DNA from: a virus
Length of the DNA: 41,228 bases
Reading direction: 5' to 3' (one strand)
Virus record (IMG/VR): IMGVR_UViG_3300017593_000693
Span: 1-41,228 of that record
Part shown: piece by piece, positions 10,641 through 29,697 of the stretch
How the letters are laid out: every line of letters starts with the position of its first letter
How positions within the stretch are numbered: the stretch's first letter is position 1
Made by a program: the position numbers and the translations under genes
The notes under the pieces: generated by a model
Database searches by the model: none
Seen by the model: the letters and a program-made list of their open reading frames with translations, nothing else
Told to the model about the DNA's origin: nothing

Positions 10641-11473
10641 TATTCAGCCCCTTTACGAAGTTCCTCGATTACAGTCTCTAAGACATCTTTATTTCCCTTT
10701 CTCGCCTTAAAGACAATCGACTCATAGTTTTTCAAGACTCTATCTATGTCTTCAGGCTTTACAAACTTCATATCTTTCATGGCTCTAATTGCCTCCATCG
10801 CATGTTCTCGACTTCTTGCTCCAGTCTCAATTTCACCTGCCATCCCAACTGCCTGACTCTCAGGCAACCCAAGCAATTCTCTCCCTCCAGCTTCCATAGT
10901 TCCATACTCTCCCGTAGTCACCGCCAAAGCCTTCGGCCGCATAAAATGCCGTCTTGCCATCGCAGACTCTACAGGCGTCTCTCGATAAAACACCGTTGCA
11001 GTTCGAGATGGTTGAGGAATGACTGTGGGCGTGGGGATGTTTTGTGGAGCTACAGCAGGGAGATTCTTTTCGGCTTCGCCGAGAGCTTTGGGTGCAGCTT
11101 CTTCTATCTTGCTGCCAAACTTCTTGGCTAGTTTTGCAGCTAGTTTCTCAGCAAGACTTGTGCGCTTCACGCCGAGATAGGCGAGAGCTGTTGCTATTGC
11201 TGTGCCAACAGCTACTGGGACATAGTGCTTCCAGGTTTTCTTCCGAGCTTTATGGAAGATGTCGTAGGTTTCAGCCAAGTAAGATGCAGCTAGTTCTGCA
11301 TCTGTGTCGTCCAACGTTTTGCCTGTAGACGCATGGTATTCTCTAAGTAAGAGTGGAGCGGCGTAGTCGAGGAATTCGTTCTTAGAGAGCTGTGGGAATG
11401 CAGACAACGTCTCTGCTCCTATTTTGCGAGCTACAAATTCCAGTGGACTGACTTTTGTCTCTTTTTTGCTCAT
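10640..11473 (-). CDS. Hypothetical protein between TerL and portal, with a hydrophobic segment
   Basis: Protein of 277 aa overlapping TerL by 4 nt and the portal start by one base. The N-terminal half is helical; a hydrophobic stretch (HYVPVAVGTAIATALAYLG) near residues 84-102 could span a membrane. It is followed by a Lys/Ala-rich helix and a Pro/Thr linker. The C-terminal part has two charged helices (REHAMEAIRAMKDMKFVKPEDIDRVLKNY). Its place next to the motor suggests a packaging or head-assembly accessory; function not recognised. Confidence 0.55.
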   Translation of the reverse strand: MSKKETKVSPLEFVARKIGAETLSAFPQLSKNEFLDYAAPLLLREYHASTGKTLDDTDAELAASYLAETYDIFHKARKKTWKHYVPVAVGTAIATALAYLGVKRTSLAEKLAAKLAKKFGSKIEEAAPKALGEAEKNLPAVAPQNIPTPTVIPQPSRTATVFYRETPVESAMARRHFMRPKALAVTTGEYGTMEAGGRELLGLPESQAVGMAGEIETGARSREHAMEAIRAMKDMKFVKPEDIDRVLKNYESIVFKARKGNKDVLETVIEELRKGAE

Positions 11474-12918
11474 GCTACCTTCCAGTTACGTTTTTTCCTT
11501 CTTCTTATTCGTCTTGCTGCAACGACTCGTGCAACAGCTGAGGCACGCTCCAAATAGCGTGTGCAGACTAGAGAGTCTGCATGGTCTGGAGAGCCGAAGC
11601 CTTTCGAGCGAAGTTCGTCCTTTGATTGAATCTTAATTCTTCCACTCTGCTCTTTGAAACTTGGTAGAGACAGCTCGTCTAGAAGCTCTGGATAGTCTGG
11701 AAGAGACCAGCGTATTTTCTCACATGCGTCTCTAGCTCTCCACCATAGCTCATCCCGAAGCAGATAGTAGAACTCTGGATGAAATGCCTTCCAAGCGAAG
11801 TTTACATCAAAAATCTTGCCTTTGAACCATCTGCGGAGGAGGTCTGCAGGCCCAGCTCCAATTCCTCCTGTTACATCTATAGCAACACCTACGAGGCGTC
11901 TTAGGTCTTCTTGAATATGCTCGGCTGCCCATTCTGCGACATCGACTCCATCCATGTGATACGTGACGAAAGGCGTTTGGACATATGGCCCAACGACTTT
12001 TGTCAAGACAGTCTGGTCGCTCCCAAATCTTGCAACGTCTAGGCCCCAAATAACAGGAAGACGCTCGTCGTCGATGTCTATGTCATCGAAGTCATATTCA
12101 ACGCACTGCCTCACCCAGTCAAGAGGAATAAGCACATTGTCTCCGCCTACAGGGAACTCACCTTTAACACGAACCTGGTAAACAGGATGATTTATACCAT
12201 ACTTCTTCCTATACCGTTCTACCCACTGCTTCGACACATTAGGACTCTTCTCAGAGTCCCAATGCAAACGATGCCATAGCTTAGCTATCGTCGGCACCTT
12301 GAAGACGTCATAGAAATAACCCCTAGCTCTCGTAGGGTTCGAAATCATTATGACTCGGTTGTTCTCCTTCGTAAGAAAGCTCTCAATAGGCAGAAACACT
12401 GGGTCTGGCACACCAGAAGCCTCGTCTATAATTGCTAAGAGATTGTCTTCGTGGTAGCCAGCAAGTGTCTCTGCCTGCTCCTCGGGAGATGCCTTCGCAG
12501 AAATAGAAACAAAGCGAAGCCACCAAGTTTCAGAAAAACCTTTAACAAAAATCTTATCCTTCTGCACTTCAAAAAGGTCTTTCAAGAGAGACTTCTTCAA
12601 CCACTTAACAACCTCAGATTTTAGAATATCATACAACTGCCTATATGTCGGAGCCGTAGCCACAACCCTAGCATTCGGCCAGCAGCAAAGAAAGTGCAGA
12701 ATAATCCAACTAGCACAACAATCTTTTCCTGTCCCGTGGCCACTTCGCACAGCAATCTGCTTATGCTTAACATAAGCTCGTAGCAACTCTTCTTGCTGCC
12801 ACGTTGGAGTCGCCCCAATCAAATCCTTCACAAATTCAACAGGACGCTCTCTATAGTAGGTCTTAAATCGCCTAAATACCTTAACCAAGTCCCTGCTGGG
12901 CATCTCCTTGAGCTCCAA
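11470..12918 (-). CDS. terL: Terminase large subunit
   Basis: Protein of 482 aa. Walker A RSGHGTGKD near residues 58-66. Coupling segment VVATAPTYRQLYD at about 85-97. Walker B NLLAIIDEAS near 159-168. The C-terminal RNase H-like nuclease starts at IWGLDVARFGSDQTVL with a second acidic strand AIDVTGGIGAGPADLL. It powers DNA packaging and cuts the concatemer. The longest frame starts at TTG (12918). An ATG at 12903 is also possible, but its AAGGAG directly abuts the codon with no spacing. It overlaps the preceding 54-aa gene by 38 nt, so coupling through that gene is likely. Confidence 0.93.
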   Translation of the reverse strand: MELKEMPSRDLVKVFRRFKTYYRERPVEFVKDLIGATPTWQQEELLRAYVKHKQIAVRSGHGTGKDCCASWIILHFLCCWPNARVVATAPTYRQLYDILKSEVVKWLKKSLLKDLFEVQKDKIFVKGFSETWWLRFVSISAKASPEEQAETLAGYHEDNLLAIIDEASGVPDPVFLPIESFLTKENNRVIMISNPTRARGYFYDVFKVPTIAKLWHRLHWDSEKSPNVSKQWVERYRKKYGINHPVYQVRVKGEFPVGGDNVLIPLDWVRQCVEYDFDDIDIDDERLPVIWGLDVARFGSDQTVLTKVVGPYVQTPFVTYHMDGVDVAEWAAEHIQEDLRRLVGVAIDVTGGIGAGPADLLRRWFKGKIFDVNFAWKAFHPEFYYLLRDELWWRARDACEKIRWSLPDYPELLDELSLPSFKEQSGRIKIQSKDELRSKGFGSPDHADSLVCTRYLERASAVARVVAARRIRRRKKRNWKVA

Positions 12919-13406: not shown

Positions 13407-13437
13407 GCCTTTGCTCCTTTTTTAGTTTCTAAGTTAC

Positions 13438-13466
13438 AAGGTAACAAAAGGCAAGAGAAATGTCAA
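13438..13466 (-). promoter_or_regulatory. Late (packaging/structural) promoter
   Basis: On the minus strand: -35 TTGACA (13466-13461), 17-nt spacer, -10 TACCTT (13443-13438) preceded by TGT, i.e. an extended -10. It lies about 30 nt upstream of the ATG at 13406 and would drive the whole late operon. The -10 is weak, consistent with an activator or a repressible promoter. The operator at 13474-13493 sits just upstream of the -35. Confidence 0.6.
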
Positions 13467-13473
13467 ATTGTTA

Positions 13474-13493
13474 TTGCCAACAATTGTTGGCAA
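13474..13493. promoter_or_regulatory. Perfect 20-bp palindromic operator upstream of the late promoter
   Basis: TTGCCAACAATTGTTGGCAA is a perfect 20-bp palindrome. It ends 7 bp upstream of the late -35. The same sequence with a changed last arm (TTGCCAACAATTGTCAA, 15863-15879) lies in the spacer and -35 of the promoter of the 112-aa gene. AACAATTGTT also abuts parS (15391-15400). Position upstream of -35 suggests activation at the late promoter, while overlap at the other promoter suggests repression: a lysogeny- or timing-type switch by one protein is plausible. Confidence 0.65.
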
Positions 13494-13500
13494 CGCTGAA

Positions 13501-13561
13501 CGGCTGCGTTTTAAACTTCGTTTTAAGCACAGCCGTTTTTGAAACTTCGTTTTAATTGCAG
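13501..13561. repeat. Imperfect inverted repeat plus half element of the AAAC-N3-GTTT family
   Basis: 13501-13516 and 13520-13535 form 16-nt imperfect arms around TTC (CGGCTGCGTTTTAAAC / GTTTTAAGCACAGCCG). A second copy of the core, GAAACTTCGTTTT followed by AATTGCAG, is at 13541-13561. The same composite organisation appears at 14142-14219. The core AAAC-N3-GTTT recurs across the genome. Confidence 0.75.
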
Positions 13562-13760
13562 TTGAGGTTTTTGTGCTGTGGTTTTGTTGTGTTTCAGTAG
13601 AGAGATTTAATAAATTTTTTCGTGTTTTTGTGTGCGTGCGTTTTGTTGTGTGGGTTTTTTGTAAAGAAACAAGTTTTAGTAAAAAATTTGCCGTGTGTTT
13701 TAGAGAGAGAAATTTTTGAGAGGGGGGGTCTTTATAATATAATATATGAGTGAGGGTCTT
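13562..13760. other. Non-coding, strongly G/T-rich strand segment
   Basis: The plus strand is G/T-rich; I count about nine C in 13561-13740. It contains runs such as TTTTGTTGTG and a G7 run (about 13722-13728), followed by TATAATATAATATA. Reading frames here have low-complexity, unlikely protein. Such skewed, AT-tract-flanked DNA could be an unwinding element or single-strand initiation site; no DnaA box was recognised. Confidence 0.4.
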
Positions 13761-14141
13761 AAGAGACATGCAAAAACTATGCCAAGCCTCACCCTGTTGT
13801 ATCGTGTCGTTCGTCGTTTGTAGCAATAGGCCGTGAGGCGCTACCAGTGCCAATTTAAGCCACCCTTCTCACGTTCCATGTGGTTTAGGTCACACGTAAA
13901 CAAACGCACGAAATAAGGCCAATTCTGAGCGTCTCAGCACCATGTGTTAATAATTCCAACACCTTACAACAAACGAAACACCAAAACAAACATGAGTGAG
14001 GGAACATAAAACCCGTTTCACTCCCAGCTCCACCATCCCAGCTTCCGCTCCCGCCTGACTCTAACACCGCCTAAATGGGTACGTTTTGTAACAAAACACG
14101 TTAAATGACCTAAAATTTCTTATTTTCCAACTACCTCGCAG
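13761..14141. other. Non-coding stretch, no gene seen
   Basis: About 380 nt without a credible gene. The plus strand becomes A/C-rich from about 13840. TGAGTGAGGG occurs at 13747-13756 and again at 13993-14002. ACGTTTTGT / ACAAAACACGT near 14081-14101 forms a small inverted repeat. I see no promoter or SD-led frame. Confidence 0.4.
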
Positions 14142-14219
14142 CTCCTAACAAAGCTGCTTTTTAAACTTCGTTTTAAACACAGCTGGAAATGAAACGAAGT
14201 TTTGTTTGCAGTTAGGAGG
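14142..14219. repeat. Nested inverted repeat (cruciform-capable) of the AAAC-N3-GTTT family
   Basis: Outer arms CTCCTAAC (14142-14149) and GTTAGGAG (14211-14218) enclose two inner elements. One is an imperfect palindrome, AGCTGCTTTTTAAAC-TTC-GTTTTAAACACAGCT (14152-14184). The other is a core in the other orientation, GAAACGAAGTTTT (14191-14203). The layout parallels 13501-13561, so this is a duplicated composite element rather than a chance hairpin. Confidence 0.7.
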
Positions 14220-14240
14220 GTGTATATGTAAGAATGAGCT

Positions 14241-14819
14241 TCATCACCTATGGTGATGGACGGCAGGAAGACAAAGACGCTACTTTCTCTCTGTATATAG
14301 GAATAAGCTTCAGCACCATAAGTGCTGTTAGGATGTAAGACGTGAGACGGAAGACGAAGGTATTTCTGAAGGAGACGTGGTTCTGATTTGCATCATGCGG
14401 CATGATGAAGTTGGAAGATAGATGCTTCAGCATCAGGGATGCTGCAAACCTGGCGACGAAAGACGCTCTCGCTTCTATGCAGTTTCGTATACTGGAAACG
14501 ACTGCTGAGTGTCCGACGCAGACGAAAGACGAAGCTTCTTCAACATGCCGTCCAGCATCTAAGGATGCTGAAGACGAAGCTTCAACATGTCTACATGTTG
14601 GACTGACAGAACACGGAAGACGAAAGACGAAGCTCCAACACGAATAGTGTTGGACGGCTGTGTCGAGCTTCATCTTTGCCAACACACGTTAACACGTGTT
14701 AACAAGTGCCAACCTCAAAGCTCCGTCATCATGTCTAAGTGATGCACTCCTGGCTCGAAGACTAAAGACGAAGCTCCTCTAGACACTCTGCTTACAGCCG
14801 TCCATCATGTCCCATGATG
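14241..14819. repeat. Array of about nine short hairpins with conserved flanks and compensating stems
   Basis: Hairpins (arms/loop): 14242-14258 CATCACC; 14311-14327 CAGCAC; 14391-14407 CATCATG; 14428-14444 CAGCATC; 14553-14570 CAGCATC; 14583-14600 CAACATG; 14634-14654 TCCAACAC; 14727-14744 CATCA (weak); 14803-14819 CATCATG. Each right arm is the exact complement, so bases vary in pairs. Flanks are shared: (GA)AGCTTC or AGCTC on one side and GGACGGC on the other, in direct orientation for several and inverted at 14553 and 14803. GAAGACGAAG tracts lie between units. No credible protein is encoded. Function unknown: structured RNA, packaging or replication signal, or a small mobile palindromic repeat. 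Confidence 0.75.
14688..14703. promoter_or_regulatory. Operator palindrome GTTAACACGTGTTAAC
   Basis: Perfect 16-bp palindrome containing TAACACGTGTTA, the 12-mer that also lies in the two plus-strand promoters at 16528-16539 and 20172-20183. Here it sits inside the hairpin array with no clear promoter: TTGCCA lies upstream at suitable spacing, but the -10 position reads TTAACA. It may be an auxiliary repressor site for looping. Confidence 0.6.
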
Positions 14820-15360
14820 AAGCTTCGTCATCTTCCCTACAAACACAGTCCTCCCACAAGAGCAAACCCACCGAAGATGAAAGCCAAAAAACGAAGCTCC
14901 CTCCCAAGTGTCTCTCTCAAAGCTCTCCCTCCAACATGAAGACGAAGCTCTAAAAACGCCGCCTCCCAAAAACGAAGCTTCTGCAACTTACCGACCGCCC
15001 GTTCACCGCCCAGCCAGCTCCTGTCTCTCCGCCCTTCTGCATCGAAGCCACTTCAAACGAGCCCAAACCGAAGATGCATCTAAAACGACGTTCCAAACGC
15101 AGCTCCTCGTCCTCCTCAACCTGCAATGCTCCCTCTCCTGCTTCAAACAAAACGTCGTTTCGAACGCAGCCACAACTTGTCGTACTGCAAATAAAACTCG
15201 TTTTATTTCGAGCTTCTCTTTCTCCTCTCCGTCTCCCATCACCGAGGCGTCGTCTCTCGTCTCCCTTTGAAACGGCGTTTCAAACACAGTCTTCTAGGAG
15301 ATGCTTCGTAAAATCTACCTCCGCAAATAGAGACCTTTATAGCTCCATAACACGTCCTGC
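14820..15360. other. Non-coding, pyrimidine-rich stretch with AAAC-N3-GTTT palindromes
   Basis: Plus strand rich in CTCC and ACGAAGCT tracts, no SD-led frame. Palindromes: AAAAC-GAC-GTTC (15082-15093), AAAAC-GTC-GTTTC (15149-15161), AAATAAAAC-TC-GTTTTATTT (15189-15208) and the perfect TTTGAAAC-GGC-GTTTCAAA (15266-15284). Three of these are followed by ACGCAG or ACACAG, as in the copies at 13501 and 14152. Longer open frames on either strand here are repeat-derived. Confidence 0.6.
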
Positions 15361-15378
15361 TTGGGGTCATGCCCCTGG

Positions 15379-15394
15379 TGTTTCACGTGAAACA
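15379..15394. promoter_or_regulatory. parS: Exact bacterial parS (ParB-binding) sequence
   Basis: TGTTTCACGTGAAACA is a perfect 16-bp palindrome identical to the canonical chromosomal parS consensus bound by ParB/Spo0J. A 16-mer match in a 41-kb sequence is expected about 1e-5 times by chance. It lies in the intergenic block, next to an AACAATTGTT element (15391-15400) and a small GGGG-TCATG-CCCC hairpin (15363-15375). The phage encodes a ParB-type N-terminal domain fused to a methyltransferase (26111-27382), but no ParA. Binding by host ParB, by the phage fusion protein, or by a repressor recognising CACGTG palindromes are the alternatives. Confidence 0.8.
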
Positions 15395-15420
15395 ATTGTT
15401 AACAGTGTGAACGATTTGCA

Positions 15421-15450
15421 CCAAAAGAAGGCCATCCGAGATGGATGGCC
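15421..15450 (-). terminator. Rho-independent terminator of the 112-aa gene
   Basis: Read on the minus strand: GGCCATCC, loop ATCTC, GGATGGCC (15450-15430), then TTCTTTT. It lies just downstream of the stop at 15460, isolating this small gene from the parS/hairpin region. Confidence 0.8.
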
Positions 15451-15459
15451 AAGACAGAT

Positions 15460-15798
15460 TTACTTACCGAGCTTTGCTAAGAAATCCCTTAAGACCTTAT
15501 CCTTATCCTCTTTATCCTCTTTTTTAGCTTTGCTTTGTGTTTTTGAATTCTTAATTCTTTTCTCAAGCTTGGTTAACTGATTTTCAAACCAGCTTTTCAA
15601 GTTTTCCAAAGCTTCTAGCTTACTTGCCAAGCTCGGCAAGTTAGCCAACAATTCACGACATGCAACAATTTCAGCTAGGTTTTCAGATTCGAAACTGCCG
15701 ATCTCTTTCTTAATCCCGTCAACATTGACGAAATAGGTCAGCTTATAGCTACCATTCACAAAGCTAATCCTGTTCTTTAAGATTTGTTTTTTAGCCAT
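15460..15798 (-). CDS. Lone small gene of the intergenic block, candidate regulator (112 aa)
   Basis: Has its own promoter (15851-15879), a strong SD (AAAGGAGAAGGAAA) and its own terminator, so it is a monocistronic unit. The N-terminus is basic, then a beta-hairpin-like part (ISFVNGSYKLTYFVNVDGIKKEIGSF) and a helix (ENLAEIVACRELLANL). Residues about 57-112 form a Lys/Glu/Asp-rich coiled coil (NQLTKLEKRIKNSK...KKEDKEDKDK). Its promoter overlaps an operator shared with the late promoter, so it may be an autoregulated DNA-binding protein. That is inference; no family is recognised. Confidence 0.7.
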   Translation of the reverse strand: MAKKQILKNRISFVNGSYKLTYFVNVDGIKKEIGSFESENLAEIVACRELLANLPSLASKLEALENLKSWFENQLTKLEKRIKNSKTQSKAKKEDKEDKDKVLRDFLAKLGK

Positions 15799-15850
15799 TT
15801 TCCTTCTCCTTTGTTAAACGTTAAACAATCCCTCAACCAAAACCAAAAGC

Positions 15851-15879
15851 ACAATATCAAACTTGCCAACAATTGTCAA
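15851..15879 (-). promoter_or_regulatory. Promoter of the 112-aa gene with embedded operator
   Basis: Minus strand: -35 TTGACA (15879-15874), 17-nt spacer, -10 TATTGT (15856-15851). This is one of the best sigma70/sigmaA-type matches in the window. The spacer and -35 contain GACAATTGTTGGCAA, a variant of the 20-bp palindrome at 13474-13493, so a protein bound there would block RNA polymerase. Flanked upstream by A/T tracts (15881-15911) resembling an UP element. Confidence 0.75.
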
Positions 15880-16514
15880 CTAAAAAATAAAAATTTTTTC
15901 CAAAAAATTTTAACCAAACATTTGTCCTTCCTCTCGCCATCCTAACCCAAACACCTCCACCCTCTCGCCTCGTTCTCTCTAAGCTTCTCCACTACGACCT
16001 TCTTCACCGCCAGCTGCGTTTCTATAGCTCTCTCACCACGACTGTAGCTAACACCTCGTTTTAAACGCAGCCTCTCCACTACGACTGCATTTAACGCCTC
16101 GTTTTAAAGACAGCTTCCCCGACACGACTTTCTCGAAGGAAGACGAGAGACGTAAGCTACACTTGCACGCTATGCGAGCCTCTTGCGACGGAAGCAACGA
16201 AGGTGGAGCTGTCTCTCTCACGTTGACGAAAGCTGCGTTTACAACTTCGTTTTAATGTTAGCTCTAGCATGCCATGCAGGCTTCTTGCGATGGGAAGACG
16301 CAGACAGAGCGAAAGCTGCATCTGAAACTTCGTTTTAAAGGGAGATTGTTGGTGCGTCTGCGGGCTTCTTGCCTCGATGGCGTGCCTGCACGACTCTTGC
16401 CTCGACTCCTTATGCAAATAAGCTGGAGCTTAGTTTGGGAGAGCGATGTTCAGCTGTGCTACCAAAACGCTGTTTCGTGTAACGACCTGTGCACAAACTT
16501 TTTTAAATTGCTAC
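15880..16514. other. Non-coding stretch with repeat units upstream of the early promoter
   Basis: No credible gene. Contains CTCGTTTTAAACGCAG (about 16056-16071) and CTCGTTTTAAAGACAG (about 16098-16113), the palindrome AGCTGCGTTTACAAC-TTC-GTTTTAATGTTAGCT (16231-16263), GAAAC-TTC-GTTTT (16324-16336) and AAAAC-GCT-GTTTC (16464-16476). A second motif, (G)GCTTCTTGC..GATGG or GAGCCTCTTGCGACGG, occurs three times (about 16176, 16278, 16364), the first two followed by a GCTGC...CGTTTTAA element. It looks built from duplications. Confidence 0.55.
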
Positions 16515-16543
16515 TTGCAATTGTTGCTAACACGTGTTATATC
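16515..16543 (+). promoter_or_regulatory. Early promoter with TAACACGTGTTA operator
   Basis: -35 TTGCAA (16515-16520), 17-nt spacer, -10 TATATC (16538-16543), about 65 nt before the first early ATG. The operator palindrome TAACACGTGTTA (16528-16539) covers the 3' part of the spacer and the first bases of the -10, so a bound protein would occlude RNA polymerase. GCAATTGTTGC at 16517-16527 resembles the other operator class. Confidence 0.65.
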
Positions 16544-16607
16544 TCTGTCAACAAAACTTGGCAAGGCAATCAAGACTTGTCATAAAGCTTAAACAAAGGA
16601 GGCAGAA

Positions 16608-17012
16608 ATGCAAATGTTTCTTAACCTCACTCCCCATCCAGTAAACGTTTATAGGGACGACGAGCTTGTCCTAATTATTCCTTCTGCAGGCACAATCCGC
16701 CTGCAGGAAAGAACTGAGCCATCAGGCACAGTTGCAGGCGTCTCTGTTGTCTCTAAGACAACAGACGGCATCTCAGTCGTCCTTTCAGAAGACCTTCCTA
16801 ATCTTACTTCGCCAACTGTCGTAATCGTCTCCCGTCCAGTTGGCGAAGCCTTAGCTCGTTCTCCACACCTTCGCACGAAGCTAATTCGCACTCTTATCCT
16901 AAAGGGTTTCAATGTCGACACCTTCGTCTGTCCAGACACAGGTGAAGACTCCGCCCTTAGAGATGAAAACGGAAACATCTATGGCGTAAGGCGCTTCTGT
17001 GTCTTTAAATAA
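16608..17012 (+). CDS. First early protein, phage family beginning LNLTPHPVNV
   Basis: Protein of 134 aa. The N-terminus MFLNLTPHPVNVYRDDELVLIIPSAGTIRLQE resembles short phage and actinobacterial proteins that start 'LNLTPHxvxv...IPPSGxxxR'; function unknown. Then TVVIVSRPVGEALARSPHLRTKLIRTLILKG and a Cys-containing tail (VCPDTGEDSALRDENGNIYGVRRF). SD AAAGGAGGCAGAA gives ATG 16608. As first gene after the early promoter it may act at infection onset; this is positional inference. Confidence 0.65.
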   Translation: MQMFLNLTPHPVNVYRDDELVLIIPSAGTIRLQERTEPSGTVAGVSVVSKTTDGISVVLSEDLPNLTSPTVVIVSRPVGEALARSPHLRTKLIRTLILKGFNVDTFVCPDTGEDSALRDENGNIYGVRRFCVFK

Positions 17013-17024
17013 AACGTTGTTTTA
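17010..17024. repeat. Palindrome TAAAACGTTGTTTTA between genes
   Basis: 15-bp palindrome (TAAAAC-GTT-GTTTTA) overlapping the stop codon of the upstream gene and just before the SD of the next. It is the exact reverse complement of 24048-24062, which has the same position relative to a stop and an SD. Confidence 0.7.
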
Positions 17025-17038
17025 AAAGGAGGCGAAAG

Positions 17039-17371
17039 ATGAATGTAAGAGAGACGGCTCTAGAATTGCAGCTTGAGGCTGCACAGTTTTTTATGAGCTG
17101 CGATGGACAGTGTTCTGATTGTCCTATGGCCAAGGGCAATGGTGAAAGCTGTTGGCCAAAGACAAGCTATGAGACTTTGAAAGAGTCTCGAGACCCAGCA
17201 GTCGTAATCGCTCTACGAGACGGAATGTCTCTTAAGGAAGCTTCTTCCTTCCTCAATGAGGTTCGTGAAGAAATAGAAGAAGCTATTGCAGAAGGAGATT
17301 TCTTTGATGCTGAAGAACACTGGATTAATTGCACAGGTCTCGAACTGGACTATTTAGAAAGCATTCTTTAA
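17039..17371 (+). CDS. Cys-rich small protein (110 aa)
   Basis: Residues about 20-39 contain CDGQCSDCPMAKGNGESC: four Cys in a Cx3Cx2Cx9C spacing that resembles the second half of the Cys motif in the three genes at 18133-19989. The rest is acidic and helical (SSFLNEVREEIEEAIAEGDFFDAEEHW). Probably metal-binding; function unknown. SD AAAAGGAGGCGAAAG. Member of the early operon. Confidence 0.65.
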   Translation: MNVRETALELQLEAAQFFMSCDGQCSDCPMAKGNGESCWPKTSYETLKESRDPAVVIALRDGMSLKEASSFLNEVREEIEEAIAEGDFFDAEEHWINCTGLELDYLESIL

Positions 17372-17382
17372 GGAGGTGAAAT

Positions 17383-18096
17383 ATGTTAGAATACGTTCCC
17401 GTATTAACAAAAAAGAAAGCCATCAGCGTTAGTGGCGTGAGCGAAGAGTTGAAGCTCTTCGTTTATGGCTTGCATCTTAGACCTTGCCAGGAGTCGCTTT
17501 GCTTCATCTGCGGCCTTAATGAGAAAAGACCGTCCCTGTCGCTACTTAACTTCTTTCCACATCTGTTGGAAAATCCTACGAAGACAGCCTACGGAGTTCT
17601 TATTGCAAAAATGGAAAAATGTCGTCAGCTTTCGTTGGAGGACGACGTTAGCTTTCTCAAAAGCTTTAGTCAAAGAGCCCTCGTAGCTGGGTGGGTTTAT
17701 AAATTGGTTTTTAAGACTAAAAGCGAGGCAGTTGAGTTTTGTGAGCTACATAAACTAGATGCCGTTCCTATCCGTCGTTGTGGAGAGTGGCGTTTGCTGG
17801 CGACAGAGGTTATAAACAAACTTTTGGCCGAAACTCTAACAAAGGAGGTAGCATTGAAGCAAGAAACAAAGAACTATCTTGAGAATGCAGCAAAGATAAT
17901 TAACCGTGGCAATGACATTGCGGACTGCATAGTTGCAGTCAAACGTCTTCCATCTGGAGGACACGTAGTCTTTGGAATAAGACATGACGGCAAAACCTTT
18001 AGTTACAAGCAGTTGCCTAAGCCGCCAGAAGAAGTTGAAGAAGGTGTATGGCAGATTATGGAGGTTTTTGAACAAGAAGGATTTGTAATAAGCTAA
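17383..18096 (+). CDS. Two-part early protein with an internal in-frame start
   Basis: Protein of 237 aa. The N-terminal part has CQESLCFICGL near residues 36-46 (a CxxC knuckle). The second part, from about residue 158, is AETLTKEVALKQETKNYLENAAKII... and ends VFGIRHDGKTFSYKQLPKPPEEV. The segment coding TKEVAL reads AAAGGAGGTAGCATTG: a full SD five bases before an in-frame TTG (17854), just like the authentic starts in this operon. Either a shorter 80-aa protein is also made, or two genes fused. Function not recognised. Confidence 0.65.
   Translation: MLEYVPVLTKKKAISVSGVSEELKLFVYGLHLRPCQESLCFICGLNEKRPSLSLLNFFPHLLENPTKTAYGVLIAKMEKCRQLSLEDDVSFLKSFSQRALVAGWVYKLVFKTKSEAVEFCELHKLDAVPIRRCGEWRLLATEVINKLLAETLTKEVALKQETKNYLENAAKIINRGNDIADCIVAVKRLPSGGHVVFGIRHDGKTFSYKQLPKPPEEVEEGVWQIMEVFEQEGFVIS
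17841..17856 (+). promoter_or_regulatory. Strong internal SD with in-frame TTG start
   Basis: AAAGGAGGTAGCATTG inside the preceding gene. GGAGG is five bases from TTG (17854-17856), which is in frame and would yield an 80-aa protein ending at 18096. Comparable in strength to SDs of all adjacent genes. Confidence 0.5.
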
Positions 18097-18098
18097 CA

Positions 18099-18120
18099 AG
18101 GGCAGGCGAATGCCTGCCCT
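18099..18120 (+). other. Intergenic hairpin before an SD
   Basis: AGGGCAGGC, loop GAAT, GCCTGCCCT: perfect 9-bp GC-rich stem immediately after a stop codon and before GAGGGAGG. No T tract, so not a classical terminator. One of four such hairpins in the early operon. Confidence 0.7.
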
Positions 18121-18132
18121 GAGGGAGGCATT

Positions 18133-18501
18133 ATGAAATATACAGAGAAGCTTATTGCTTTTATGAAAAACAAGGCGTCTTTTTGTAACGACTATTTCTG
18201 CAAAGAAGACGAACACGACTTGCGAAGTTTGACTGAGAACGAAGCCAAAGACATCTGGCTTAGGATAAAAGATGCCATCTTCAAGCGAAACGACTTTGGT
18301 TTATCTGCAGCTACGTGTCCATTCTGTTACTTATTTGACTGCAGTGATTGTCCTTATGGCGAGAGGCATGGTGAGCTTGGCTGTGAAACAAGACTTTTAA
18401 CAAATGAATGGTATAGAGAGACAATAAACAAAATAGAAAAAGAAGGAGACGACAATGAACAGCAAAGAAAAACTAATACTTTTGATGAAGGCGAAAGCTA
18501 A
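18133..18501 (+). CDS. Cys-rich zinc-finger-like paralog 1
   Basis: Protein of 122 aa. N-terminal helix KYTEKLIAFMKNK; NEAKDIWLRIKDAIFKR; then the Cys core FGLSAATCPFC-x5-CSDCPYGERHGELGC: CxxC, CxxC and a final HGxxxC. It shares this layout with 18455-18874 and with two copies in 19207-19989. Probably a metal-binding domain. Next gene starts inside its 3' end (47-nt overlap) with its own SD GGAGACGACA. Function unknown. Confidence 0.65.
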   Translation: MKYTEKLIAFMKNKASFCNDYFCKEDEHDLRSLTENEAKDIWLRIKDAIFKRNDFGLSAATCPFCYLFDCSDCPYGERHGELGCETRLLTNEWYRETINKIEKEGDDNEQQRKTNTFDEGES

Positions 18502-18874
18502 AGAGCTTTCTAATCTAGTTGATATTAAAGAGACCGCATATTTTGCTCCAGAAGACGAAGCCGCTCTTAACAATTTACCGATACATTTGTCAAGTCTTAT
18601 TTGGGAGGACATAGAAGATGCTATCTTGAACCGTGACAGCTGCGGTCTCGACTCGGACGTTTGTCCATTTTGTTTAGCTTATAGCAGCATTTGTTCTCGT
18701 TGCACCTATGCCAAAGTTCATGGGAATTGTCTTTCTCCATTCAGCGATTATGCCCAGATAATAAACAAACTTCGCAAGAAGTTTGGAGACGACGCCATTG
18801 CACTACCAAGCTCTTTCTACAAAGACATCATAAACCAAATAAACCAAAAGGAGTTGGAAAATGAAGCAGAATGA
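18455..18874 (+). CDS. Cys-rich zinc-finger-like paralog 2
   Basis: Protein of 139 aa. NSKEKLILLMKAKA, then IWEDIEDAILNRDSCGLDSDVCPFC-x6-CSRCTYAKVHGNC, then FSDYAQIINKLRKKFGD and PSSFYKDIINQIN. Clear homolog of the preceding gene, and the C-terminal 'YA...SFY..I...IN' part is shared with the 260-aa gene. Metal-binding inferred from CxxC/CxxC/HGxC. Start overlaps the upstream gene. Confidence 0.65.
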   Translation: MNSKEKLILLMKAKAKELSNLVDIKETAYFAPEDEAALNNLPIHLSSLIWEDIEDAILNRDSCGLDSDVCPFCLAYSSICSRCTYAKVHGNCLSPFSDYAQIINKLRKKFGDDAIALPSSFYKDIINQINQKELENEAE

Positions 18875-19244
18875 AATCTCCATCACAGATTTGTTTGACA
18901 AGGCTGTCATACTTAAGGCGGTCAGCCCAAGACTCTCTCGTGAATTCCTCACAGACTATCTTGACGGCGATGACTCCGCACTTGAAGTCATCATCTGTAG
19001 AGCTTACATCGTCATATTCCTTTGCAAGCAGATTGCGACTACGACTGGCCTTGTTCTCTCGACTGTCGGAGACATCCTAAACATCCGACCGCCAGAGCTT
19101 TTAGACAACTTTAGAACGAAGGCAAAAGACGACATCACTTGTCTTCAGACATTATGTAATCTTATTGACAGAGACATTTATGAATATGCAACAAAGGAGT
19201 TAGAAGATGAGGCAAATAACACGAGCCCAATTTCAACTAATTAA
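18861..19244 (+). CDS. Hypothetical early protein (127 aa)
   Basis: Helical protein without the Cys core of its neighbours. SRLSREFLTDYLDGDDSALEVIICRAYIVIFLCKQIATTTG contains a hydrophobic helix, followed by KAKDDITCLQTLCNLIDRDIYEYATKEL. Overlaps both flanking genes (14 and 38 nt), showing tight coupling. Function not recognised. Confidence 0.55.
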   Translation: MKQNEISITDLFDKAVILKAVSPRLSREFLTDYLDGDDSALEVIICRAYIVIFLCKQIATTTGLVLSTVGDILNIRPPELLDNFRTKAKDDITCLQTLCNLIDRDIYEYATKELEDEANNTSPISTN

Positions 19245-19989
19245 ATTTATGTATCTTAAACGAGAACGCCTCCGCAGTGAAGGCCTCGACCCATCAATCT
19301 ACTTCAACACTGCCGACTTCTATAACATCCTCCAGTTAAGACGCCCAGACAAACTCTTCTATACTCTCTGCCAAGTAGTCGACTGTGGCATTTGCGGTCT
19401 GCCTGGAGACGTTTGTCCTTTCTGCGGAGACACGATACGCAAGGCTTTGGTAGACTGTAGAGATTGCCTCTATGCCAAGACACATCGTAAATGTGGACAT
19501 CCTGCCTCTGACTTCGCCTTTGTCAAAAAATTTCTCCTCAAACGCTACCCAAAACGAGGCACGACTGCGGTCTTCACAGAAGACTTCTATCGCTTCATCC
19601 TCAAAAAGACTTTCAAAATCACCTACAACGACAAACTCGTCCTGTTCATGCTCTACAAAGCCCTCTGCCTAGACGACCCCACCCTCTATTTCACTCTTGA
19701 GGACGCCCATGCCATCTGGAACTGGCCGATGCAGGTCGCCAGAGCCGTTTGGTATAAGCTTCGTTCCTTTATTTTCTACGGCAGCTGTGGCCTAGACGGC
19801 GACACATGCCCTCCGTGCATCCATTGTGGTCTTTTGAATCTCTTTTGTGTCAGATGCTTCTACTCATCCAACCACGGTTGCTGCACCGATGCAGACTCTC
19901 ACTATGCTCAAAACTGTAGACATACAGCCAAGTTCACAAACTCCCTCTACCTCTCCATCTTAATCAAAATAAACAGAATAGGAGGCTAA
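19207..19989 (+). CDS. Cys-rich paralog 3, tandem double copy of the domain
   Basis: Protein of 260 aa built of two copies of the domain found singly at 18133 and 18455. Copy 1: CGLPGDVCPFC-x10-CRDCLYAKTHRKC, then SDFAFVKKFL and EDFYRFILKK. Copy 2: NDKLVLFMLYKA, VWYKLRSFIFYGSCGLDGDTCPPC-x9-CVRCFYSSNHGCC, then SHYAQN and NSLYLSILIKIN. Internal duplication or gene fusion. Start ATG follows GGAGTTAGAAG inside the previous gene. Likely metal-binding; role unknown, and clustered copies hint at host-takeover proteins (inference). Confidence 0.65.
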   Translation: MRQITRAQFQLIKFMYLKRERLRSEGLDPSIYFNTADFYNILQLRRPDKLFYTLCQVVDCGICGLPGDVCPFCGDTIRKALVDCRDCLYAKTHRKCGHPASDFAFVKKFLLKRYPKRGTTAVFTEDFYRFILKKTFKITYNDKLVLFMLYKALCLDDPTLYFTLEDAHAIWNWPMQVARAVWYKLRSFIFYGSCGLDGDTCPPCIHCGLLNLFCVRCFYSSNHGCCTDADSHYAQNCRHTAKFTNSLYLSILIKINRIGG

Positions 19990-19991
19990 CC

Positions 19992-20174
19992 ATGCAATCT
20001 TTAAACGAACTAGAAACCTTTGCAACAGACACGCTCCCAGAACTCTTCGAAACGGCTTTAAATGAAACGGAGTTTTATTCTGAGCTGCGTCAGCAACTCG
20101 AGAAAGAAGCCTTCTACGAAGACGAATGGAGTGACTGTGTTACGTTTTCAGAAAAATTAATACTTGACAATTAA
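19992..20174 (+). CDS. Small acidic protein (60 aa)
   Basis: SD AGGAGGCTAACC gives ATG 19992 two bases after the previous stop. Very acidic (ETALNETEFYSELRQQLEKEAFYEDEWSD), single-helix-like; small acidic phage early proteins often bind host factors, but nothing specific is recognised. Its last codons carry the -35 of the promoter at 20164. The coding sequence includes GAAAC-GGA-GTTTT (20064-20076). Confidence 0.5.
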   Translation: MQSLNELETFATDTLPELFETALNETEFYSELRQQLEKEAFYEDEWSDCVTFSEKLILDN

Positions 20175-20192
20175 CACGTGTTATGCTATGGT
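20164..20192 (+). promoter_or_regulatory. Internal early promoter with operator TAACACGTGTTA
   Basis: -35 TTGACA (20164-20169), 17-nt spacer, extended -10 TGC-TATGGT (20187-20192). The operator TAACACGTGTTA (20172-20183) fills the spacer, as at 16515-16543, so both should respond to one regulator. A small hairpin TATGG-TTG-CCATA (20187-20199) covers the -10/start site. It would drive the genes from 20222 on. Confidence 0.75.
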
Positions 20193-20221
20193 TGCCATAA
20201 CATTAAGCACAAGGGGAAGAT

Positions 20222-20530
20222 ATGAAGATAAAAGGCCAAATCAGAGATCTGATGGAGCAGGCAGTGCGGTTGGAGGACAATCAAATCCTCCAGCTGCAAG
20301 TCCCTTCGTTGTCTCAGGCAAAAAATCTGATGCGGCAGCTCAAGGCTGCCAGAAAAACCCTTGAAGACGAGGGGATTCTAGACGTCCCTTTGGAGATTAG
20401 ACAAGAAGAGCTCAATGGACGCTGGCTAATTCAAATATACAAAGAACGTCCTATCACAGTTGAACTTGTTGAAATTGATGAAACTGGAGACGCAGTTATA
20501 AAGGACTCTTATAACCTGGGCGAACGCTAG
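20222..20530 (+). CDS. Hypothetical early protein (102 aa)
   Basis: First gene after the promoter at 20164; SD AAGGGGAAGAT. Helical N-terminus (GQIRDLMEQAVRLEDNQILQLQVPSLSQAKNLMRQLKAARKTLEDEG) and a beta C-terminus (NGRWLIQIYKERPITVELVEID). The charged, Arg/Lys-rich helices could bind nucleic acid, but no family is recognised. Confidence 0.55.
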   Translation: MKIKGQIRDLMEQAVRLEDNQILQLQVPSLSQAKNLMRQLKAARKTLEDEGILDVPLEIRQEELNGRWLIQIYKERPITVELVEIDETGDAVIKDSYNLGER

Positions 20531-20540
20531 GAGGATAGAA

Positions 20541-20765
20541 ATGGCTATAACACAAAACCTAAGCTTCAAAGTGCTGGATTTGAATGTGCTGAAAGAAGAG
20601 GCAAAAGATATGGGCATACCAATGTCCAGCTACAATGAAGCTCTACTTTGCATTGCGTTAAATAAGCTAAATTCGCTGTCATCGGAACAGAGGACGCAGG
20701 AGCTCGCTCAAGCACTCTTGCAACCCAATGTTCCGAAAAAATATCTACAAAACAAAACTAAATAA
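20541..20765 (+). CDS. Small protein, possible ribbon-helix-helix (74 aa)
   Basis: A strand (NLSFKVLDLN) then helix (VLKEEAKDMGI) then helix (SSYNEALLCIALNKLNSL) resembles a ribbon-helix-helix order, which would make it a DNA-binding candidate for the operators seen nearby. The similarity is topological only. SD AGGAGGATAGAA. Confidence 0.45.
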   Translation: MAITQNLSFKVLDLNVLKEEAKDMGIPMSSYNEALLCIALNKLNSLSSEQRTQELAQALLQPNVPKKYLQNKTK

Positions 20766-20779
20766 AAGGAGGACAGATT

Positions 20780-21181
20780 ATGTCAGAAGCAAAAAGAGAC
20801 CAAATTTCTACTGAGGTTGAGGGACTTAATGTCAAGTTCAAAATCGCAGACGAAGTGTTGGAGCTCGACATCAACAAGTGCCCACAGGAGATCAAAAACG
20901 AGTTCATGGTCTTCGGAGCTAAAAGGAAGGTCATGAACGCAGCCGCAGGCAAAGACACTCAGACAGCTATCTCCAGAATGAAAGACACGATAGACGCACT
21001 TTACAACGGCGAGTGGAACACAAGGGCTACAGGGACGCAGGAAGCAGTAAAAGCCCAGACCGTCGCCATGCTCAAAGGCCTACCCGCCAACATCAGGAAA
21101 CAGGTCGCCAAGCAACTTGCTGACCAGATCCGTGAAGCTGGAATCAGTGAGAAAGAACTCGACGAAATCTTAAATGCTTAA
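20780..21181 (+). CDS. Conserved phage protein of unknown function (133 aa)
   Basis: EVLELDINKCPQEIKNEFMVFGAKRKVMNAAAGKDT...ALYNGEWNTRAT resembles a widespread small phage family with 'LxLdlxklPxevxxxxxxxGxxxKixdAa...W..R' organisation found near replication genes; its role is unknown to me. The C-terminus is helical (LPANIRKQVAKQLADQIREAGISEKELDEIL). SD AAAAGGAGGACAGATT. Confidence 0.6.
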   Translation: MSEAKRDQISTEVEGLNVKFKIADEVLELDINKCPQEIKNEFMVFGAKRKVMNAAAGKDTQTAISRMKDTIDALYNGEWNTRATGTQEAVKAQTVAMLKGLPANIRKQVAKQLADQIREAGISEKELDEILNA

Positions 21182-21191
21182 CTGGAACTAA

Positions 21192-21212
21192 GGCTGGAGC
21201 TTAGCTCCAGCC
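21192..21212 (+). other. Intergenic hairpin before an SD
   Basis: GGCTGGAGC-TTA-GCTCCAGCC, perfect 9-bp stem, between a stop and AAGGAG. No T tract. Confidence 0.7.
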
Positions 21213-21224
21213 AAGGAGTCAACT

Positions 21225-21461
21225 ATGAATAAACTCCAACTTTACATCGGGTGCAAAATCATCAGAGCCATTCCCATGACTCTAGGACGATTCGTGGCAG
21301 AGACTGCGAGGTGGCATCTCATGGAAGACACAAACTTCCATGAAGACACACGAGGCTATAAGGTAATCTACCCTGATGGCTACGTCTCGTGGTCTCCAAA
21401 AGATACCTTTGAAGCCGCCTACCGTCCAGTTACGGAAGACGAGTTAAGACTATTGTCTTAA
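21225..21461 (+). CDS. Conserved small phage protein, YPDGYVSWSPKDTFEAAYR family
   Basis: 78 aa. The pattern LYIGCKIIRAIPMTLG...GYKVIYPDGYVSWSPKDTFEAAYRPV closely follows a common phage protein of unknown function whose core is 'YIGTKxIxAxPMxxGxY...GYxVxYxDGYxSWSPKxvFExAYR'. Length is as usual for that family. Usually embedded in early or nucleotide-metabolism gene clusters. SD AAGGAGTCAACT. Confidence 0.8.
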   Translation: MNKLQLYIGCKIIRAIPMTLGRFVAETARWHLMEDTNFHEDTRGYKVIYPDGYVSWSPKDTFEAAYRPVTEDELRLLS

Positions 21462-21473
21462 ACCAAAAGCCTG

Positions 21474-21496: not shown

Positions 21497-21518
21497 TAGC
21501 TTAAAAAGGAGGATTGTT

Positions 21519-24045: not shown

Positions 24046-24047
24046 CA

Positions 24048-25926: not shown

Positions 25927-26130
25927 ATGCAATTAAAAGACATTCAACTCCCAGAATTCTTCACAATTGCAGCCATGAAAGAACGCTTTACGTTTGAAGC
26001 TGTAAGGAAAACGACGTTGCAAAAGAAGTCAAGAAAGAAGAAGACGAAAAAGAAAAGTCTTGTAGAGCAGATTGCTGCGTTGGCTGCAAAATTGCAGGAA
26101 GAAGGAGGAAATGAAGGTGAAGATTCTTAA
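25927..26130 (+). CDS. Small very basic protein (67 aa)
   Basis: MQLKDIQLPEFFTIAAMKERFTFEAVRKTTLQKKSRKKKTKKKSLVEQIAALAAKLQEEG: a central Lys/Arg cluster suggests nucleic-acid contact, with an acidic/helical C-terminus. The frame overlaps the methyltransferase start by 20 nt and its 3' end supplies that gene's SD. Possible partner of the ParB-methyltransferase; inference only. Confidence 0.5.
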   Translation: MQLKDIQLPEFFTIAAMKERFTFEAVRKTTLQKKSRKKKTKKKSLVEQIAALAAKLQEEGGNEGEDS

Positions 26131-27382
26131 ACTAAATCCAAACGAGATTATTGTAGAAGAACGCATGCGTAAAGAATTAGGCAACATCTCTGAGCTTGCC
26201 GCCAGCATTGAGCAAAATGGCCAAATTACACCTATTCTAGTCGAGGAACGAGATGGGAAGTTTTATCTTGTTGCTGGAGAACGAAGACTTCGTGCTTGTC
26301 AGAAGCTGGGACGCACTATCGAAGCTAAGGTTGTAAAGAAGCTTGACGGCTTGAGTGCAAAAGCTATAGAACTCGTAGAGAACATTTCCCGTAAAGACTT
26401 CACGCCAGTCGAGAAAGCCAAAGCCATTCGTGACATCCACGAAGAGCTTCGGAAGGGTAAGCCTAGGTGGACAGCTAGTGACACAGCCCGCAAGCTAGGC
26501 GTCTCCGTTACAACTATCAACGATGCATTGAAGATTACGGCTATGGTAGAGATCGACCCAGAGATTCAGAAACGTGCAGCAAAACTTACTCAAGCTCAAC
26601 TTCGTCAGATGGCCAGAACAAAGAATCGTGTCGAAGACGCCGTAAAGAAAGCCGTCCTTAGAGTCTCATCCTCCAATCAAAAGCTCGTAATCGAAAAGGG
26701 AGACTTCTTCACATATGACCTTCCGACAGACCACTTTCATGCTATCTTTACAGACCCTCCTTGGGGCATCGATGTAGAATCTTTAGGAGCAGCCAAGGTC
26801 GTTCAAAATGTAACAGGAACAGCTTACGACGACAAACCTTCTGTAGACCGAATAAATAAACAGCTCAAGATGTTCAAGCGTTTCTACGAGCTTCTTGCCG
26901 ATGACGGCCGTCTCATAACCTTCTGTGCAATCGACAACTTCTCGTTGTGGAAAGCATATGCTGAGGAGGCAGGCTTCGAACGCATCTACCGTGTCCCTAT
27001 GATTTGGGTCAAGGGTGTTGCAGGAGCTCAAAGTGCACCTCAATACTATCCATCTTCATGCTACGAGTTCATGCTTCTCGCCTACAAACGAAAGAACGCA
27101 ACCCTAGCTCGCAAAGGCAGAGGCAACGTGTTCAACGTCCCCAAAGTCCCCTCGAACAAGCTTCGTCATCCAGCCGAAAAGCCAGTCCGCTTGTGGGAGG
27201 AACTTCTCGAGACTTTCGCATATCCTGGCAAACCATTCCTCGACCCATTCTGTGGCGTAGGAGGCAGTCTCCGAGCCGCCTACAACTATGGCATGTCTGA
27301 AGTCTGGGGTCTCGACATTAACGAAGCTTGCATCCTACTAACTAGGGAACTCTTCGTTCCTTCAAAAGGAGTCAAGAAATGA
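26111..27382 (+). CDS. ParB-like CTPase/HTH domain fused to DNA adenine methyltransferase
   Basis: 423 aa from ATG 26111 (GGAGG just upstream). Residues 1-110: ParB N-domain with VAGERRLRACQKLG (GERR box, about 56-67) and IELVENISRKDFTPVEKA (ENxxR box, about 87-102), the two signatures of CTP-binding ParB clamps. Residues about 119-142: helix-turn-helix TASDTARKLGVSVTTINDALKI. From about 195: methyltransferase with DPPWGID (215-221; DPPW fits N6-adenine), HPAEKPVRL, then FLDPFCGVGG (376-385), i.e. beta-class motif order. Fusions of ParB-N with methylases are known in phages and mobile elements. What is special here is the exact parS at 15379-15394. Could mark DNA, block cleavage or aid segregation. 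Confidence 0.9.
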   Translation: MKVKILKLNPNEIIVEERMRKELGNISELAASIEQNGQITPILVEERDGKFYLVAGERRLRACQKLGRTIEAKVVKKLDGLSAKAIELVENISRKDFTPVEKAKAIRDIHEELRKGKPRWTASDTARKLGVSVTTINDALKITAMVEIDPEIQKRAAKLTQAQLRQMARTKNRVEDAVKKAVLRVSSSNQKLVIEKGDFFTYDLPTDHFHAIFTDPPWGIDVESLGAAKVVQNVTGTAYDDKPSVDRINKQLKMFKRFYELLADDGRLITFCAIDNFSLWKAYAEEAGFERIYRVPMIWVKGVAGAQSAPQYYPSSCYEFMLLAYKRKNATLARKGRGNVFNVPKVPSNKLRHPAEKPVRLWEELLETFAYPGKPFLDPFCGVGGSLRAAYNYGMSEVWGLDINEACILLTRELFVPSKGVKK

Positions 27383-29697
27383 ACATAACACTAGGTAGAG
27401 TTATACCACCAGTTGGCTCTGTCGTAGACACAGGCATACATGGCAAAATATACATTCTCGGCGAGGCTCCTGGGGAGAAGGAAGACCGTGCAGGCCAACC
27501 CTTCATCGGTGGCAGCGGCCATCTTCTCTTCAGCTCTCTCCAACGCTTCGGCGTGCTCAGAAAAAACGTCCGTATTGCCAACGTCTTCTGGCAGAGACCT
27601 CCAGCAAACCGCATTTCTGTCGTAAAGGACACTGTCCTATTCGAACAATACAGCCGTCAAGTCCGACAGGACATCGAAGCTACACAACCAGACGTAATCA
27701 TCGCCCTCGGTGCAACAGCTCTCGAGTGTCTCACTGGCGAGACAAGCATCAAATCTGCACGTGGCTACTGGACAGATTACAAAGGCATCCCAGTTCTCCC
27801 GACTTACCATCCTGCAGCTGTCCTGAGAGACTACCAACGCACCTATATCCCCTTTCTCTGTGACCTAAAGAAAGCCGTCTTAGGCTCAAAGAAAGGCAAA
27901 AAGGTTCTTAACTACCCAAAGCTCAAGCTTCACATTGACGACTTCGATACTTTCCAAGCCATCTGCAAAAATCCACCATCCACTCACATAGCCCTAGACA
28001 TCGAGGTCGACACAAAACGCATGGTCACAACAATTATCGGCCTCGCCTGGGACAGAAACAAAGCCGTCAATATCTCCCTAAATCCCGAAAACGTAGCCGA
28101 AGCAACCCATCTTCTCCACAAGCTGTGTTTAAAACGTGGTGTTGAGTTAATATGTCACAATGCAGCATTTGAGTTACAGTGGCTGTATATGCTACACCAG
28201 CTTGATATAGGCCTTCCTCATGACACGATGATAATGCATCATCTGTTACTAATGGAACAAGACAAGAGTCTTGGCTTTTGTGCAAGTATCTGGTTGGATG
28301 TGCCGAGATGGAAGTATCTGAGTGCTAGTGACCAGTTGACATATAATGCTCTTGACTGCACGACTACATGGGAGTTGTTTGGAGTGCTAGAGAAGGAGCT
28401 TAAAGAAAGCAACTTGTGGAATTACTATCTGATGCATAAGCGAAGAGAACTTCGTCCTGCAGTCCATGCTAGCACACTTGGGTTGGAACTGGATAGAGAA
28501 GCTCTTGGGAGACTGGTCGAGAAGAATTTGAATGAACAGGAAGTGTTGCTGAGCAAATTGAAGATGCTGACTGGGGAAGACTTCAATCCCAATTCACCTG
28601 TGCAGCTTAAGAAACTGCTGTATGACATCTGGCAACTTCCTGTTCAGAAAGAGAAAGGTAAGATTTCTACAGGTGCAAATGCAATAAAGAAGCTTGTAAG
28701 GAAGACTAAGAATCCTGCCTACAGAGAGTGGCTAAAAACCTATCAGGAGTGGAAGAAACTCAGTTCGCTGTATTCGAAAGAGCTGAAAATTGAACCTGAC
28801 CCACATACAGGTAGGATTCACACAGGCTATAATGTTGCTGGAACAGCCAGTTCTCGATGGTCGTCTTCAAAGCTATTCTTCCTCAGCAGCACAAATCTGC
28901 AGAATCGTAACAAGAAGCAGCGTATCATATTTCGACCACCAATCAAGAACTGGGTCTTCGTTGCTAGAGACTATAGCGGTGCTGAGGCACGAGTCGTAGC
29001 GTATCGCTGTAACGACACAGTCCTAATGGAAGCCTTTGAGAAAGGTATGGACATTCACAAGCTCACAGCGTCGTTGATGTTCGGCAAGTCTATAGAAGAA
29101 ATAGACGATGACCTCAGACAAATCGGAAAGCGGATGCGACATGCTGGTAACTATGACATGTCTTGGAAGACTGTTGCAGACCAGATGGAGATTAGTGCTG
29201 CTGAAGCTAAGACATTGCTAAATCGCTACCACGCAGCCAACCCCAAAATTAGGAATGTCTTTCATGCGAAGACTCGTGAGATTGTCATGAGAACACGCAG
29301 CCTAATAAATCCCTTTGGTCTGGTTCGTGTTTTCTCAGGACGCATAACAGACAACGAGACATTCCGTCAGGCATATGCTTTCTATCCACAGTCTACTGTT
29401 ACAGATGCACTGAACAAGTCGATAGTAGATTTCTATGATTGGACTGAAGACAAGAAGTGGGTGTCTTTCTGCTTACAAGTTCATGATGAAGCGATAGCTA
29501 TTTGCGAACCTGAAGCAGTTGCAGAGGTCTCTGAGACACTTCGTCGTTTCATGGAGTTCCCAATACCAATTGAGTGTCTTGAGACTGGCGAGACTCGTGA
29601 GCTAATTCTTCCAACCGACTGCAAAGTAGGCAGGAATTGGGGCAAGTATCACCCAGAAGACAATCCAGAAGGCATGAGGGAGTTCAAGGATGCATAA
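27379..29697 (+). CDS. Uracil-DNA glycosylase-like domain fused to DNA polymerase I (A family)
   Basis: 772 aa. Residues about 20-165: family 4-type UDG fold with GEAPGEKEDRAGQPFIGGSG (28-47) and TYHPAAVLR (142-150). The N-terminal and middle Cys of the usual Fe-S cluster are absent. 3'-5' exonuclease: ALDIEV (205-210), ICHNAAFEL (258-266), YNALD (322-326). Polymerase: motif A ARDYSGAEARV (529-539), motif B DLRQIGKRMRHAGNYDMSW (578-596), motif C LQVHDEA (699-705). All catalytic residues are present. It is the replicative polymerase. The same UDG-Pol architecture is known in SPO1-like phage polymerases. Overlaps the methyltransferase by 4 nt. Confidence 0.92.
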   Translation: MNITLGRVIPPVGSVVDTGIHGKIYILGEAPGEKEDRAGQPFIGGSGHLLFSSLQRFGVLRKNVRIANVFWQRPPANRISVVKDTVLFEQYSRQVRQDIEATQPDVIIALGATALECLTGETSIKSARGYWTDYKGIPVLPTYHPAAVLRDYQRTYIPFLCDLKKAVLGSKKGKKVLNYPKLKLHIDDFDTFQAICKNPPSTHIALDIEVDTKRMVTTIIGLAWDRNKAVNISLNPENVAEATHLLHKLCLKRGVELICHNAAFELQWLYMLHQLDIGLPHDTMIMHHLLLMEQDKSLGFCASIWLDVPRWKYLSASDQLTYNALDCTTTWELFGVLEKELKESNLWNYYLMHKRRELRPAVHASTLGLELDREALGRLVEKNLNEQEVLLSKLKMLTGEDFNPNSPVQLKKLLYDIWQLPVQKEKGKISTGANAIKKLVRKTKNPAYREWLKTYQEWKKLSSLYSKELKIEPDPHTGRIHTGYNVAGTASSRWSSSKLFFLSSTNLQNRNKKQRIIFRPPIKNWVFVARDYSGAEARVVAYRCNDTVLMEAFEKGMDIHKLTASLMFGKSIEEIDDDLRQIGKRMRHAGNYDMSWKTVADQMEISAAEAKTLLNRYHAANPKIRNVFHAKTREIVMRTRSLINPFGLVRVFSGRITDNETFRQAYAFYPQSTVTDALNKSIVDFYDWTEDKKWVSFCLQVHDEAIAICEPEAVAEVSETLRRFMEFPIPIECLETGETRELILPTDCKVGRNWGKYHPEDNPEGMREFKDA

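Follow-up and report, generated by a model that had tools for sequence, protein, structure and literature searches.

An exact chromosomal-type parS site, apparently kept by selection, on a tailed phage with no recognised ParA gene

The window, by which we mean the whole stretch of DNA that was analysed, spans 41,228 bp and is listed as a virus record in IMG/VR. Matches to a terminase large subunit (TerL; 11470..12918, minus strand), a portal protein and a major capsid protein mark it as a tailed phage, which is what the preliminary description had taken it for. The genes lie in two blocks: that on the minus strand extends from 34539 across the record end as far as 13406, and that on the plus strand occupies 16608-34537. 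A relative with 95% nucleotide identity, L123 (41,448 bp), is circularly permuted: the ParB-methyltransferase is found at 9,677 there, the terminase at ~35.6-37 kb. This points to a closed or permuted map. No nucleotide match was found in annotated phages, and a search of 84,980 genomes of bacteria and archaea found no relative of the terminase. In the set of genes scanned, many of which had no match, no repressor, integrase, plasmid replication gene or initiator was recognised, so the gene content gives no independent sign of a latent state.

The replication module comprises a ParB-methyltransferase, a DNA polymerase A (27379..29697, plus strand) beside it, an AAA protein, a PD-(D/E)XK nuclease, a DUF3987 primase-like protein and a dUTPase. 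The polymerase is fused to a uracil-DNA-glycosylase-like domain (Pfam UDG, E 1.5e-21, 27379-29697), the dUTPase lies at 29827, and a dATP/dGTP diphosphohydrolase-like protein is encoded at 33697; together these possibly point to an unusual nucleotide metabolism. Also in the plus-strand block, at 18133-19989, is a run of related and apparently duplicated small proteins with the recurrent cysteine pattern CPFC...C..C.Y...HG.C, which had no Pfam match among those scanned.

Between the packaging and structural genes on the minus strand and the early and replication genes on the plus strand lies a divergent, repeat-rich and largely non-coding region of 3.2 kb (13407..16607). GC skew in the window tracks gene strand and indicates no clear origin, and it is in this divergent control region that the parS site sits. 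The region holds a gene for a 112-aa protein (15460..15798, minus strand), which has 63-72% identity in relatives and is predicted to fold as beta-beta-beta-alpha plus a long helix; it had no family match, and a fold search gave no significant match. Its promoter-like sequence, TTGACA-17-TATTGT (15851..15879, minus strand), is inside a 30-nt invariant run, and a hairpin resembling an intrinsic terminator (15430..15450, minus strand) lies between the gene and parS. On the other side a short hairpin, GGGGTCATGCCCC (15363..15375, unstranded), adjoins parS and is invariant in all three phages compared. No Rfam match was found, and the block around parS folded no better than shuffles of it.

Several other repeats were observed in and around this region. 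Three AACACGTGTT palindromes occur at 14688-14703, 16528-16539 and 20172-20183, one of which overlaps a promoter-like sequence that precedes the early operon; they are possibly operators of a phage regulator. A 20-bp palindrome, TTGCCAACAATTGTTGGCAA, lies upstream of the packaging operon at 13474-13493, and a close copy of it covers the promoter of the 112-aa gene at 15863-15880; the two likely form a shared operator. At 14230-14830 there is an array of short hairpins whose stems differ and whose flanks are common (AAGACGAAGCTTC...; GCTTCAGCACCATAAGTGCTG, GCTTCATCACCTATGGTGATG and others), and this array evolves fast, with insertions and deletions between relatives.

The parS site itself is the exact 16-bp palindrome TGTTTCACGTGAAACA at 15379..15394 (unstranded). 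It is intergenic, 66 bp beyond the stop codon of the 112-aa gene; the packaging operon starts 1.97 kb away and the early operon 1.2 kb away. By sequence match it is a chromosomal-type parS, as the palindrome agrees with a consensus that is that of diverse bacteria and may not be that of the host. The same 16-bp consensus serves to locate chromosomal parS sites in diverse bacteria (PMC10197239). There is a single exact copy in the window; the second-best match is TGTTAAACGTTAAACA at 15812, with 3 mismatches, and no other sequence comes within 3. An order-2 Markov model of the window gives an expectation of 1.2e-5 exact copies, a figure that is valid only because parS was already known as a motif. 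If the sequence is left free, ~0.7 perfect palindromes of 16 bp are expected in the window, against 3 present, all of which fall in the divergent non-coding region. The preliminary description had reported a perfect consensus palindrome in an intergenic region, with a chance expectation of about 1e-5 for that motif, and each of these points holds.

Conservation was compared among three phages, namely the window and its two close IMG/VR relatives, L123 and L122, the latter with 86% nucleotide identity over the left part. A capsid-profile search returned the same two close relatives, after which identity drops to about 46%, and no further parS within 2 mismatches was found in 1.1 Mb. (Another contig, L124, which had come up as a relative, was set aside as an unrelated phage that matches only over a short terminase stretch.) The palindrome is at the same place in both relatives. 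L123 retains all 16 bases; L122 retains the 14-bp core, GTTTCACGTGAAAC (15380-15393, unstranded), with only the outermost base altered, despite a 12-bp insertion that abuts the site. Over the non-coding region as a whole, 54% of aligned columns are invariant among the three phages and 46% have changed. The preliminary description had held that loss of the palindrome between retained flanks in close relatives would tell against a function; what is found is the core in place in both.

Two palindromes with a CACGTG centre, GTTAACACGTGTTAAC (14688) and TAACACGTGTTA (16528), are both broken in L122. The loss of these sister palindromes, with the parS core retained, suggests that parS is specifically kept. 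The conservation spans a block of ~107 bp around parS (15310..15416, unstranded), within which stretches of 15, 16, 15 and 34 nt are invariant among the three phages, so parS may not be the sole selected element there, and the block may have more than one job. Taken together, the comparison supports reading the site as a host-type parS that selection has kept on a phage with no ParA.

No ParA was found in the window: there was no match to AAA_31, while a control matched in 14/14 genomes, in agreement with the earlier remark that no ParA gene could be seen. The phage does encode a fusion of a ParB_N domain, a helix-turn-helix (HTH) and an N6/N4 DNA methyltransferase (26072..27382, plus strand), whose start is more likely the ATG at residue 14, as in relatives. 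Such fusions are reported to be commoner in phages than in bacteria (PMC12704722). In Caulobacter ParB the residues that contact parS bases include Q162, G170, K171, S172, R173, N178, G201 and R204 (PMC7383237). Aligned to Spo0J, the phage fusion has TASDTARKLGVSVTTIND against TQEQLAKRLGKSRPHIAN, with substitutions Q162->A, K171->V, R173->V and N178->D, and its HTH has GVSV where parS readers have GKSR. Of a complete ParABS system, then, neither a ParA nor a cognate ParB with a parS-reading HTH was found on this phage.

Four distant phages share the ParB-methyltransferase and the polymerase (Desulfofustis phage LS06-2018-MD01, Microcystis phage Mel-JY34, Manatee Spring ctMlz233 and Vibrio phage VS-ABTNL-3), and none of the four has an exact parS. 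One of them has GGTTTCGCGTGAAACA, 2 mismatches from parS, in a non-coding gap; this sequence, at 39447-39462 of L131 (MW202489.1), lies in a 76-bp gap between minus-strand genes. In some relatives that carry the fusion the HTH alignment is lost altogether. Because the contact residues of the fusion are changed and the distant phages with the fusion are without exact parS, the likeliest reader of the site would be the ParB of the host, and the phage's own ParB-methyltransferase is not expected, judging from its residues, to read it. The preliminary description had proposed that the phage could load host ParB onto its own DNA and had offered the phage ParB domain as a further possible reader. 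The host ParB part stands as the best reading of a conserved host-type parS on a phage without ParA; the phage ParB domain, with GVSV for GKSR and with distant relatives that bear the fusion and no exact parS, is not supported as a reader.

To place the site among viruses in general, 2.9 million viral contigs in IMG/VR were scanned for exact 16-mers. Both TGTTTCACGTGAAACA and a second variant, TGTTCCACGTGGAACA, which we take to be a natural form of parS, as in Pseudomonas, gave at least 120 matches each. Two control palindromes with the composition of the first variant, neither of them matched to the second and with loci of slightly different GC content, gave 10 and 5 in the same scan. Sequence similarity divides the parS matches listed into 74 and 85 groups unrelated to one another, and the controls into 5 and 5. 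Among the matches listed, terminase was found in 33/82 parS records of at least 15 kb and in 4/11 control records; ParA was above the cut-off in 1/82 of those parS records, and ParB_N in 3/39 of the parS-bearing records tested. With ParA in 1/82 and a terminase rate like that of the controls, the enrichment is not accounted for by phage-plasmids with a full parABS. Some of the parS-bearing viral records possibly include host flanks, and the enrichment does not obviously stem from mis-filed chromosome ends. Intergenic placement was considered as functional evidence for viral parS and set aside, since the controls are intergenic too (8/10) and placement does not discriminate. The scan suggests that, set against control palindromes, the two parS variants are in strong excess among viral contigs, most of the records being without ParA. 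Three related viral contigs (L017, L044 and L053 in IMG/VR) have 3-5 exact parS within about 1 kb, unlike the single site here. Five annotated ParB-bearing phages, Lacachita not among them, have no parS within 3 mismatches.

Four other explanations of the site were weighed. In one, an unlikely reading which we still place ahead of the other three, parS would be the operator of a phage or host transcription regulator that matches parS by coincidence, with ParB uninvolved. Operators probably do exist in the divergent region, given its other palindromes, which share the same centre (14688, 16528) or lie in promoter-like places (13474, 15868), and the invariant hairpin and the 34-nt invariant run adjoin parS directly. 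But no promoter-like match overlaps parS, the other CACGTG palindromes are not kept in L122 as parS is, and a regulator's operator would have to agree with parS at 16/16 positions at a chance of ~1e-5 while two parS variants are enriched across viruses relative to controls. Pure chance resemblance, fixed by the common ancestry of three close phages, can point to there being just three close genomes known and to the ~0.7 palindromes of any 16-bp sequence expected in the window; it must contend with the expectation of 1.2e-5 for parS itself, with a 14-bp core retained perfectly where 46% of columns changed, and with the virus-wide enrichment over matched controls, and it is the least probable of the four.

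The two remaining alternatives keep a ParB at the site. The phage's own ParB-methyltransferase might be the reader, in a self-contained, ParA-free system whose task would be to mark or silence the control region. The fusion does retain ParB_N, its NTP-binding boxes (GERRLRA, ENISRKDFTP) and an HTH, and the Staphylococcus phage Lacachita is described as a temperate phage that has a ParB-like protein but lacks ParA (PMC10286716). We nevertheless consider this improbable, as most parS-contact residues are changed, exact parS is absent from relatives that carry the fusion, some of which have no alignable HTH, and viral parS sites mostly occur without a ParB_N gene. Somewhat more doubtful still is a decoy, in which replicating phage copies would titrate ParB off the chromosome and so disturb segregation or free ParB-repressed genes. 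The parS copies of SGI1 do destabilise its helper plasmid in a dose-dependent way (PMC10954446), but one site per genome is little, the gain is doubtful for a phage that kills its host, and titration does not need the invariant flanking block.

The best explanation, to which we give a probability of roughly 0.7, is that the site is a functional host-type parS able to load host ParB. That host ParB binds it is, taken by itself, quite likely. Once bound to parS, ParB closes into a CTP clamp and slides off, and the zone that it builds up locally engages ParA and SMC. Upon infection, host ParB would recognise the phage parS, load as CTP-bound clamps and slide over the adjoining control region. This would build a host partition complex on a ParA-less phage, able to contact host ParA and SMC-ScpAB. 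The likeliest gain would be that phage DNA is positioned or retained in the cell, either through segregation in a slow or latent infection or through SMC-assisted resolution of replicating copies. Among the possible downstream uses, segregation or retention is our first choice, a tentative one; SMC loading or SMC-assisted resolution comes second and is distinctly less likely, regulation of the divergent operons third and less likely again, and titration of host ParB fourth, with little in its favour. In P. aeruginosa, a single parS is reported to be potentially enough for segregation (PMC4368675).

The closest known parallel is SGI1: the ParB of the IncC helper plasmid binds its stolen parS sites, which stabilise SGI1 and expel the plasmid (PMC10954446). 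Like SGI1, the phage is a mobile element that carries a parS mimic without a parAB of its own; in SGI1 a helper plasmid supplies the ParB and the sites correspond to the parS of IncC (PMC10954446), whereas here the sequence is the chromosomal consensus, the carrier is a tailed phage, and binding by host ParB is what we infer. Compared with chromosomal parS (the Spo0J/ParB boxes), the 16-bp sequence is identical (PMC10197239), but it occurs as one site in the non-coding divergent control region of a ~41-kb virus genome with no linked parAB. Mycobacteriophage RedRock and its relatives also have centromere sites on phage DNA, and differ because they supply their own ParA and ParB and their own sites, in which an 8-bp motif recognised by the phage ParB is repeated (PMC7157519). 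Lacachita (PMC10286716) and the ParB-CTPase/methyltransferase fusions (PMC12704722) resemble the phage in having ParB_N and no ParA, here with the methyltransferase fused; the available text on Lacachita mentions no parS (PMC10286716).

In the literature searched, element-borne hijacking of parS was found only for SGI1 with its IncC plasmid, and no report was found of chromosomal parS on phages without parA. Hijacking of parS by a mobile element is thus already known, and a phage with a chromosomal parS would be a new form of it, in a pattern that is possibly general. We hold it an even bet that host-type parS without parA is a widespread, convergent strategy by which tailed phages bring in host ParB and, by way of it, ParA and SMC, with this phage as one conserved example. 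If host ParB does load on phage genomes, the chromosome-segregation machinery would be a phage host factor, and infection would be tied to ParA gradients, SMC loading and cell-cycle control. It would also account for how a phage that lacks ParA might be inherited or positioned in the cell.
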